From Vulcanimicrobium alpinum (GTDB lineage Bacteria > Vulcanimicrobiota > Vulcanimicrobiia > Vulcanimicrobiales > Vulcanimicrobiaceae): a stretch of DNA of 64,000 bases. Below, in pieces: positions 33,327-35,453 of this stretch. The notes under the pieces were generated by a model. That model did not search any database and had not been told where the DNA came from. It saw only the letters and a list, made by a program, of their open reading frames with translations. Made by a program: the position numbers and the translations under genes. Location of the stretch: positions 496,001-560,000 of the forward strand of contig NZ_AP025523.1 in the NCBI RefSeq assembly GCF_027923555.1, written 5' to 3'. The number at the start of each line of letters is the position of its first letter. Position 1 is the stretch's first letter.

Positions 33327-34541
33327 TCACTCGCGCACGAGTTCGGCGTCGAAGCCGATCTCGGCGAGCCGGGCGAGAATCGCCGGCAGGTCATCCGAAC
33401 GCTCGATCTCGACGGTGAGGTCGAGCTCGGCGTGTTTTGCGGAGAGGCTGCCGAAGACGCGATGGTGCGCGACGTCGAGGACGTTGGCGCGCGCGTCGGC
33501 GAGCGCGGTCGCGACGCTGGCGAGTTCGCCGGGTTTGTCGACCATGTGCACGCGGATGCGCACCACACGTCCCGAGCGCATTCGATGGCGCACGATCACC
33601 GCCGCCAGCATCCCTAAGTCGATGTTGCCGCCGCAAAGCAGCGTTCCGACGCGCTTCCCCGCGAACCGCTCCGGATCGCTTTGCAACGCCGCGACGCCGG
33701 CGGCCCCGGCACCCTCGACGACGAGCTTCTCGTCTTCAAGCAGCGTTGCGATCGCGGTTTCGATCGCCGCTTCGCTGACCAAGAGCGTCCCGCGCACGTG
33801 TTCGCGGATCAGCGATTCGTTGAGCGTGCCGACACGCGTTACCGCGATCCCCTCCGCGATCGTCGGGCCTCCCGCGACGGGGCGCTCGTCGAGCGCCGCG
33901 CCGACGCTGGGATAGAGCGCGGACTGCACGCCGAAGAGTTCGGCGCGCGAGCCGTACGCCGCGATCGCGAGCGCTGCGCCAGCGATCAAGCCGCCGCCGC
34001 CGACCGGGACCAGGATCACGTCGAGGTCGCCGGCGTCCTCGAGGAGCTCCAGCGTCGCGGTCGCCTGGCCGGCGATCACCTGCGGATCGTCGTAGGGATG
34101 CACCAACGTTGCCCCGGCCGTCGCCGCGAGTTCGCGCGCGTGCGCGGCCGCGTCGGCGAAGGTCGCGCCGGCCAGCACCACCTCGGCGCCGAAGTCGCGC
34201 GTGCGCCGCACTTTGAGCAGCGGCGTCGTTTCCGGCATCACGACGGTCGTGCGCAGGCCGAGCCGCGCGCCGTGATACGCGACGGCCTGCCCGTGATTCC
34301 CGGCCGACATCGTGACGATGCCGCGTGCGCGCTGTTCCGGCGCGAGCGCGAGCATCGCGTTGAGCGCGCCGCGTTCCTTGTACGAGCCGGTGGTCTGCCG
34401 GGTCTCGATCTTCAGGATCACGTCGGCGCCGGCGGCGTCGGAGAGCGTGCGCGATCGGACCGACGGCGTGCGGACGATCCCGGAGGCGATTCGTTCCGCG
34501 GCGAGGCGGACATCGGCGGCTGAAACGTCGAGCGTGGTCAC
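33327..34541 (-). CDS. ilvA: Threonine ammonia-lyase (threonine dehydratase) with ACT domain
   Basis: Converts threonine to 2-oxobutanoate, the entry step to isoleucine. 404 residues. TTGSYKERGALNAM carries the PLP Lys55; SAGNHGQAVAYH and GGGGLIAG are the substrate and phosphate loops. Residues about 328-404 form a single ACT domain, the short form (about 400 aa) often called catabolic. GTG 34541 follows GAGGAG at 8 nt. The upstream leader has an Ile/Val-rich peptide and an intrinsic terminator, so expression responds to branched-chain aminoacyl-tRNA and the role here is biosynthetic. The metallophosphatase gene follows. Confidence 0.95.
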   Translation of the reverse strand: MTTLDVSAADVRLAAERIASGIVRTPSVRSRTLSDAAGADVILKIETRQTTGSYKERGALNAMLALAPEQRARGIVTMSAGNHGQAVAYHGARLGLRTTVVMPETTPLLKVRRTRDFGAEVVLAGATFADAAAHARELAATAGATLVHPYDDPQVIAGQATATLELLEDAGDLDVILVPVGGGGLIAGAALAIAAYGSRAELFGVQSALYPSVGAALDERPVAGGPTIAEGIAVTRVGTLNESLIREHVRGTLLVSEAAIETAIATLLEDEKLVVEGAGAAGVAALQSDPERFAGKRVGTLLCGGNIDLGMLAAVIVRHRMRSGRVVRIRVHMVDKPGELASVATALADARANVLDVAHHRVFGSLSAKHAELDLTVEIERSDDLPAILARLAEIGFDAELVRE

Positions 34542-34562
34542 GGGGCATGCTCCTCGGGTGCG

Positions 34563-34599
34563 AAAAAACGAAAAACCCCTCGCCGCCGGGCGAGGGGTT
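34563..34599 (-). terminator. Intrinsic terminator forming the ilvA attenuator
   Basis: Read leftward, AACCCCTCGCC and GGCGAGGGGTT (34574-34599) form an 11-bp perfect stem with a CGGC loop, followed by TTTTTCGTTTTTT. It lies 21 nt before the ilvA start and after the leader peptide stop (34624). GGCGAG inside the leader peptide region can pair with CTCGCC of the 5' arm, giving a competing antiterminator. Confidence 0.85.
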
Positions 34600-34623
34600 C
34601 GTGCGGTGCGATGCGCGATCGCG

Positions 34624-34701
34624 TTACGCCGAAACGACTCGCCGGCTCGGTGGAGCCGCGATAATCGAACCGGCGATAATCACGAGGGCGCAACGCAACA
34701 T
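34624..34701 (-). CDS. Ile/Val-rich leader peptide of the ilvA attenuator
   Basis: A 25-codon reading frame, ATG 34701 to TAA 34624, beginning MLRCALVIIAGSIIA. It has four Ile, three Val and two Leu codons, in two Ile-Ile pairs and one Val-Val pair, comparable to the E. coli ilv leader. It starts only about 5 nt after the predicted transcription start, so it is nearly leaderless. Stalling at Ile/Val codons would free the antiterminator and allow transcription into ilvA. Its position between a good promoter and an intrinsic terminator supports a regulatory role rather than a protein function. Confidence 0.8.
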   Translation of the reverse strand: MLRCALVIIAGSIIAAPPSRRVVSA

Positions 34702-34712
34702 CGGTAGGGCGA

Positions 34713-34742
34713 TCAATACCACGGACGCTCGGTCGCTGTCAA
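34713..34742 (-). promoter_or_regulatory. Promoter of the ilvA leader
   Basis: On the minus strand, TTGACA (34737-34742) and TATTGA (34713-34718) with an 18-bp spacer. Predicted start is about 34706, a few nt before the leader peptide ATG. Nothing else is recognised between it and the divergent Uma2 gene at 34881. Confidence 0.7.
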
Positions 34743-34880
34743 TTCAGCCGGCGGCATTCCGCGCGAGTGTGCGCTCCGGCCGACGGTGTGCGGGCGGGAA
34801 TTGCGCGATGGCGGGCGCGGTCCATCGTCCGGCGAAATATCCCGGCAATCCCAGGGACACGCCGCGAGGGTCACGCTGCG

Positions 34881-35453
34881 ATGAGTGAGATGGCAGCCCT
34901 TCCGAACGAGATCACACCCTATCGCATGTCGGTCGACGAGTTCTACCGTATCGGCGATCTGCTCGACGAAGACCGCACGGAGTTGCTCGACGGGGTCATC
35001 GTCGCCGTGAGCCCGGTTTCGGTCGCGCATGGCGCGCGGGCGGCCGCGATCACGATCGCGCTCGGCAACGCGTTCGGCAGTCGTGCCGTCGTGATTGCCG
35101 GCGGATCGATGACGGTCGACCGATACGATGCTCCGCTGCCCGACGTCTCGGTTCTTCGGCCGCTTCTGCCGGATGCCGGCACGTATGCGTCCGTCGAGCA
35201 GGCGCTGTGCGTCGTCGAGGTTGCGAAGTCGAGCCTCACCCGGGATCTGCACTACAAAGCCCATCTTTCCGCGCGAGCCGGCGTCGCGGATTATCTCGTC
35301 GCGGACATCGACGGCGACGTCGTGCACCACCACACGGGCCCGTCGCCCGGCGGATACGCAAGCGTAGCCGTGCTGCGGCACGGCGCAACGTTCTCCATCG
35401 CGGCGTTTCCCGACATCGTGCTGCGCGCCGACGCGTTCCTCGCGCCGCGCTGA
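34881..35453 (+). CDS. Uma2/DUF820 family PD-(D/E)XK nuclease-like protein
   Basis: 190 residues. SVDEFYRIGDLLDEDRTELLDG is the typical N-terminus, PDVSVLRP supplies the nuclease Asp, and CVVEVAKSSLTRDLHYKAHL gives the ExxxS...K block of the restriction-endonuclease-like fold. Such genes are abundant in high-GC and cyanobacterial genomes and their function is not settled. ATG 34881 has only a weak GAGG upstream. Convergent with the EamA gene, 8 nt between stops. Confidence 0.88.
   Translation: MSEMAALPNEITPYRMSVDEFYRIGDLLDEDRTELLDGVIVAVSPVSVAHGARAAAITIALGNAFGSRAVVIAGGSMTVDRYDAPLPDVSVLRPLLPDAGTYASVEQALCVVEVAKSSLTRDLHYKAHLSARAGVADYLVADIDGDVVHHHTGPSPGGYASVAVLRHGATFSIAAFPDIVLRADAFLAPR

Follow-up and report, generated by a model that had tools for sequence, protein, structure and literature searches.

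Predicted isoleucine-sensing attenuation of ilvA in Vulcanimicrobium alpinum and candidate near-leaderless attenuators across its family

As of 2010, leader-peptide systems were known only in Proteobacteria and Actinobacteria, to which Naville and Gautheret add the Firmicutes (PMC2965389). Leaders of actinobacterial ilvB, trp and cys genes have been described, the mycobacterial cys leaders being without obvious terminators (PMC1262725). The Mycobacterium tuberculosis ilvB1 leader is 166 nt long and is contrasted with leaderless transcripts, and mycobacterial cysteine biosynthetic genes are under translation attenuation (PMC13236596). The RNA of the Sinorhizobium meliloti trpL attenuator begins at the leader-peptide ATG (PMC7298713), so that a leaderless attenuator is already known. 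For Eremiobacterota, the literature searched holds nothing relevant on attenuation or leader peptides, which is weak evidence given its poor coverage of subscription papers; the same literature, with the same poor coverage, yielded no aroA leader attenuator.

The Vulcanimicrobium alpinum WC8-2 genome is a single contig of 3,508,363 bp (PMC9758169). In the 64-kb window analysed here (the whole stretch of DNA, 64,000 nucleotides), a complete element comprising promoter, leader ORF, hairpins, terminator, Shine-Dalgarno sequence and ilvA start occupies positions 34742-34541 of the minus strand (Table 1). The initial annotation had described a TTGACA-N18-TATTGA promoter, a 25-codon peptide with II, II and VV pairs, an 11-bp terminator and a ribosome site, and all of these are read at ilvA. 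The −10 box is a weak match, with the leader ATG 11 nt downstream of it, and the promoter predicts a +1 near 34705, 4 nt 5′ of that ATG. The 1:2 hairpin is formed by UCGCGGCUC-CACC-GAGCCGGCGA; the last Ile pair, AUUAUC, extends into its 5′ arm, with AUC of codon 14 as the overlap, and its 3′ arm is part of region 2, which ends directly before the UAA and holds the Val pair (codons 22–23) near the stop. The proposed pairing of GGCGAG (34643-34638) with CTCGCC (34594-34589) is possible by complementarity, and the 2:3 fold is common to three species. The anatomy of the element and the conservation of its Ile codons, three pairings and spacing are what the sequences show: an ORF rich in codons for the end product, a terminator between ORF and gene and a mutually exclusive antiterminator are all present, the regulatory codons overlap the 5′ arm of the 1:2 hairpin and the stop codon is placed for masking region 2. 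The ilvA product also scores 368 bits against TIGR01127, slightly under the cut-off of 378.75. Across the intergenic region that it has in common with ilvA lies a divergent ORF (34767-35453, plus strand) with no NCBIfam match, which we take to resemble a Uma2-type protein.

Table 1 Features of the ilvA leader (window positions) and of sibling leaders elsewhere in the V. alpinum genome (G000)
Feature	Position	Strand	Basis or remark
−35 box TTGACA	34737..34742	-	Read from sequence; same offset from leader ATG in G005 (TTGACG) and G007 (TTGACA)
−10 box TATTGA	34713..34718	-	18-nt spacer from −35; prediction from sequence
Leader peptide ORF MLRCALVIIAGSIIAAPPSRRVVSA*, 25 codons, without Shine-Dalgarno, near-leaderless (predicted)	34624..34701	-	ATG 34701, TAA 34624
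First regulatory Ile pair, ATT ATC, codons 8-9	34675..34680	-	Ile in 3/3 species; synonymous in G007 (ATC ATC)
Second regulatory Ile pair, ATT ATC, codons 13-14	34660..34665	-	Invariant in 3/3 ilvA leaders; overlaps 5′ arm of 1:2 hairpin
1:2 (pause/anti-antiterminator) hairpin, UCGCGGCUC-CACC-GAGCC(G)GCGA	34639..34661	-	Folds in 3/3 species, with G-U and U-A/C-G changes; compensatory changes in A4
Region 2, antiterminator 5′ strand, CCGGCGAGUCGUUUCGGCG	34627..34645	-	Folding and alignment
Region 3, antiterminator 3′ strand, overlapping terminator 5′ arm (CGCACGAACCCCUCGCCCGG)	34586..34605	-	Folding and alignment
Intrinsic terminator hairpin 3:4, AACCCCTCGCC-CGGC-GGCGAGGGGTT, 11 bp, 4-nt loop	34574..34599	-	Sequence and folding
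U-rich tract UUUUUCGUUUUUU	34563..34575	-	T-rich tail conserved
Shine-Dalgarno GAGGAG of ilvA	34550..34555	-	Sequence
ilvA, threonine ammonia-lyase, 404 aa, GTG start 34541	33327..34541	-	NF005600 503.5 bits, cut-off 496
ilvC leader MLSRLVVLVSVLLAVLIDGRRDVFA with terminator	G000:C1:2956040-2956196 (L154)	+	Orthologous ilvC leaders in most congeners
aroA (EPSP synthase) leader MLSGAYFYRWYPRCTQVVSVEFGIA with terminator	G000:C1:3082557-3082723 (L155)	+	Phe/Tyr/Trp codons
Prephenate dehydratase-DAHP synthase fusion (pheA) leader MAVTSWFYRYFYAECAALRRGRPLP	G000:C1:860337-860492 (L181)	-	
hom (homoserine dehydrogenase) leader MFAHGVITTTMTTTLGEGGSGSTSA	G000:C1:2679069-2679171 (L262)	-	No clear −35 box
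metY leader MNRRSLAMMMCCCSPRGTV, mixed Met/Cys, terminator	G000:C1:2681661-2681805 (L186)	-	
ssuA leader MPNAASFLAMCMCCLPRPGVG, mixed Met/Cys, terminator	G000:C1:1786787-1786944 (L184)	-	
cysI-like sulfite reductase leader MLLCCCLLMACPASVARRSASS, mixed Met/Cys, terminator	G000:C1:3331120-3331227 (L253)	-	

Taken together with its conservation in congeners, this arrangement very probably represents a ribosome-mediated transcription attenuator that senses charged tRNA-Ile. Transcription would begin some 4 nt upstream of the leader AUG, with immediate ribosome loading on the near-leaderless start. When isoleucine is ample, the ribosome would pass both Ile pairs, reach the UAA and cover region 2, allowing the 3:4 terminator to form and stopping RNA polymerase approximately 135-140 nt from the start. 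When Ile-tRNA is scarce, the ribosome would instead halt at codons 8-9 or 13-14; judging from its position, a ribosome stalled at 13-14 would mask the 5′ arm of the 1:2 hairpin and leave region 2 free for region 3. The resulting 2:3 pairing, of CCGGCGAG..CGUUUCGGCG with CGC.CGAAC..CUCGCCCGG, would block the terminator so that ilvA is transcribed.

A close ilvA orthologue is present in 3/11 genomes of the genus (100, 80 and 70% identity), and the element lies upstream of ilvA in all three, in the same order of promoter, ATG, peptide, hairpin, terminator and ilvA. The leader peptides of the two congeners, MYVWSSPIIAGIIIAVPSGRRAASA and MFASSSIIIASRIIIAAPPGRRAASA, accompany a preserved promoter spacing, start codon, set of Ile codons, hairpins, terminator and distance to ilvA. 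Across the three leaders the four Ile codons are conserved, one of them with a synonymous change, and neighbouring columns vary. RNAs ending at the terminator 5′ arm adopt an identical antiterminator fold in each of the three species, and all 9 modelled terminator pairs are invariant (9/9), a conservation that partly reflects kinship as these are three species of one genus. The initial annotation held that an ilv-type attenuator precedes ilvA, suggested comparing the leaders of relatives, and named a lack of conserved Ile/Val codons or alternative stems as counter-evidence; since both congeners retain Ile codons and alternative stems alike, that counter-evidence did not appear and the attenuator reading gains support. 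The orthologues of ilvA from other genera (47-74% identity, in the genomes searched) are without such a leader; on ilvA the element is therefore limited to the genus Vulcanimicrobium, and the ilvA leaders total three among the genomes searched.

The same alignment bears on the amino acid that is sensed. An ilv-type leader in which the same RNA attenuates transcription and responds to isoleucine and valine jointly would account for the VV pair at codons 22-23 of the V. alpinum leader. However, the initial annotation's Ile/Val codons divide in the comparison: the Ile pairs are kept in all three species, whereas VV is replaced by AA in both congeners. The pair is also inside region 2 and close to the stop codon, so that a ribosome stalled there would mask region 2 rather than free it, and ilvA serves isoleucine. 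Joint Ile and Val sensing was rejected by the comparison with congeners and is very unlikely; as VV is missing from both congeners, the element most likely senses isoleucine and no other amino acid.

How far these features exceed chance depends on the measure. RNA from 34540-34720 is more stably folded than its dinucleotide shuffles (n = 200, z −4.0), and the complete leader RNA folds with the terminator formed. The 2:3 duplex energy of the V. alpinum ilvA leader alone is within chance for this GC-rich DNA (p 0.31); RNAduplex comparisons against shuffles are significant in most ilvC leaders and not in ilvA, and the combined P was set aside because the leaders are related and chosen. The 4 Ile among 24 codons of the V. 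alpinum leader represent a modest enrichment (P = 0.025), and the three orthologous leaders hold 4, 5 and 6 (P = 0.025, 0.0047 and 0.0009). We built two covariance models, R1 of the ilvA leader and R2 without promoter or start codon; inside the window R2 scores 82 bits at the ilvA leader, and the next full-length match scores 10 bits. Covariation counts are uninformative with the three ilvA sequences alone, and an alignment (A4) of 17 ilvA, ilvC and ilvB leaders was used. In A4 the antiterminator is paired in 86.5% of cells, versus 32-48% with one strand slid, and has 10 double-changed cells, and the 1:2 plus terminator set is paired in 92% of cells with 20 double-changed cells, each number of double changes being matched by 0/500 shuffles, counts that are support and not probabilities because the shuffles leave relatedness in place. 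The terminator itself is paired in 98% of cells across the 17 leaders. Since both pairing sets are conserved with compensatory changes, both mutually exclusive conformers appear to be maintained. Conservation in congeners, together with compensatory hairpin changes in the ilvC and ilvB siblings, is the evidence that lifts the predicted attenuator above chance.

Riboswitch-type switches likewise combine a terminator with a competing antiterminator, and the leader might accordingly be a riboswitch, a T-box or a protein-binding RNA that acts independently of small-ORF translation. In the Rfam search no family reaches threshold at the ilvA leader, and the five sub-threshold chance matches include no T-box or amino-acid riboswitch; a riboswitch or T-box was rejected for lack of an Rfam match. 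Moreover, the ORF start, Ile codons and frame are conserved, the hairpins overlap the coding region as ribosome control expects, and in sibling leaders the codon identity changes with the downstream pathway, making translation-independent control extremely unlikely. The least likely account, an ordinary constitutive terminator beside a chance ORF, draws on the ease with which strong hairpins arise in GC-rich DNA and on the unexceptional 2:3 duplex energy, but the ORF on the other side runs divergently on the plus strand (about 34881-35453, counted from an internal ATG), so that there is no upstream minus-strand gene for the terminator to end, and the ORF and both conformers are conserved.

The predicted ilvA attenuator would be one among many near-leaderless attenuators of similar build on amino-acid and sulfur genes in Eremiobacterota. 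Model and pattern searches of the V. alpinum genome, together with selected stretches of it and with products assigned by NCBIfam, place the element of the initial annotation among about ten similar ones, at ilvA, ilvC, ilvE, aroA, pheA-DAHP synthase, hom, metY, ssuA, cysH and cysI, and the leader codons mostly match the downstream pathway. Enrichment of pathway codons in the ilvC, aroA, pheA, hom, metY, ssuA and cysI leaders gives P from 0.013 to 2e-6, and the cysH (P = 0.07) and ilvE (P = 0.41) leaders are weak members, in tests that are post hoc, the amino-acid sets having been picked after the gene was known. The pattern TTGAC..ATG..CCBCGCC gave 14 matches versus 10 for its reversed control, no clear enrichment, and a second pattern was not enriched either (30 versus 29); matches were therefore kept only where peptide and downstream gene agree.

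With R1, related leaders are found in many genomes of Vulcanimicrobium's family; R2, at E<=0.001, matches in 49/121 genomes of the phylum, nearly all of them from the same family. The siblings found by the two models precede ilvC, ilvB and leuA (Leu/Val/Ile), aroA and pheA (Phe/Tyr/Trp), thrC, and hom, metY, cysI and ssuA; ilvB, leuA, thrC (MLFASSVTTTTTTTTTTTTGGRFGVGLT) and further pheA and hom leaders come from elsewhere in the family. The leuA leader of G035 was rejected as a member. Leaders of thrC carry 8-12 consecutive Thr; twelve consecutive Thr codons precede threonine synthase at L137 and L138 (G034 and G035), where the G035 gene is directly assigned and the G034 leader is near-identical to that of G035. 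Phe/Tyr/Trp leaders stand before aroA at L155, L156, L159 and L165, as in MSACAFWYRLYYGYTGFVSVEFGAA. Leader-like ORFs with Cys runs and terminators, at which a promoter was not recognised, were also seen before a peroxiredoxin (L166, G007) and before an ABC permease, presumably of the sulfonate type (L161, G070). A promoter match is absent at ssuC of G070, prx of G007 and hom of G000.

Where a promoter is recognisable (49 leaders), the distance from the −10 box to the start codon is 7-15 nt (median 9) and the predicted 5′ UTRs are 0-8 nt, with the restriction that some leaders were found through the TTGAC pattern or the start-containing model and only those found by R2 are independent of promoter and start. 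A Shine-Dalgarno-like word occurs in 2/52 leaders examined. The "nearly leaderless" peptide of the initial annotation is thus right as a prediction, and a near-leaderless start is predicted to be a general property of these leaders. On these comparisons the ilvA element is to all appearance a real, conserved attenuator; the larger and more interesting claim is that of a family-wide set of near-leaderless attenuators. It is likely that in Vulcanimicrobium's family much of amino-acid synthesis and sulfur assimilation is under dispersed near-leaderless attenuators that follow a single plan. Some of these would be of kinds absent from the literature searched: aroA behind a Phe/Tyr/Trp leader, and metY, ssuA and cysI behind leaders that mix Met and Cys and carry intrinsic terminators.

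Searched against 491 kb of loci from other phyla, R2 has five weak matches, all below 35 bits. Two stand before pheA with Phe-run leaders and one before ilvC with Val/Ile runs, all three plausible attenuators; the remaining two are terminator-like and without a fitting leader (one of the two inspected). As three of the five are plausible attenuators, weak R2 matches (under ~40 bits) are not phylum-specific and need gene context. The similar attenuators before pheA and ilvC are at the gammaproteobacterial loci L085:497-611, L075:2377-2490 and L085:1859-1972, and those of pheA have a TTGACA box shortly before the leader. The attenuator plan is shown to be common to Eremiobacterota and Proteobacteria, by descent or by convergence.

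The distant lineage suspected in the initial annotation is Eremiobacterota, a little-studied phylum without a described cultured member before 2022, in which attenuation would be a recurrent mode of amino-acid feedback. The prediction extends ribosome-mediated transcription attenuation to a phylum without an earlier case in the literature searched. From the leader codons one can read directly which amino acid each gene senses, an aid to annotation in this under-studied group, and, since RNA and leader ORF appear to begin together, these leaders provide natural tests of the speed of leaderless initiation needed for coupling to RNA polymerase.

Like the ilvA element, the ilv, thr, his and trp attenuators of Proteobacteria combine a leader of regulatory codons, 1:2, 2:3 and 3:4 pairing, a terminator and a biosynthetic target; unlike them, the V. 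alpinum element is Ile only, stands on ilvA and has a predicted 5′ UTR of ~4 nt without a Shine-Dalgarno sequence. Branched-chain codons and a terminator before a branched-chain gene are likewise found in actinobacterial ilvB leaders (PMC1262725) and M. tuberculosis ilvB1 (PMC13236596), and, reportedly, in the Corynebacterium ilvBNC leaders (PMC10272879, PMC11857589). In contrast to the actinobacterial ilvB leaders, the V. alpinum target is ilvA, the regulatory codons are all for Ile, and transcript and leader are predicted to begin together. S. meliloti trpL senses Trp and is a single case, whereas the design recurs in Eremiobacterota. Poly-cysteine leaderless short ORFs of mycobacteria were reportedly described by Canestrari in 2020; their Cys runs are reported to lie ahead of operons, as in the cysI, ssuA and metY siblings. 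Unlike mycobacterial cys leaders, these siblings in Eremiobacterota have intrinsic terminators and mixed-in Met codons. The ilvA element would work like classical ilv/thr attenuation, and what is new lies in the phylum, in the repeated use of a near-leaderless design and in the aroA and Met/Cys sulfur targets.
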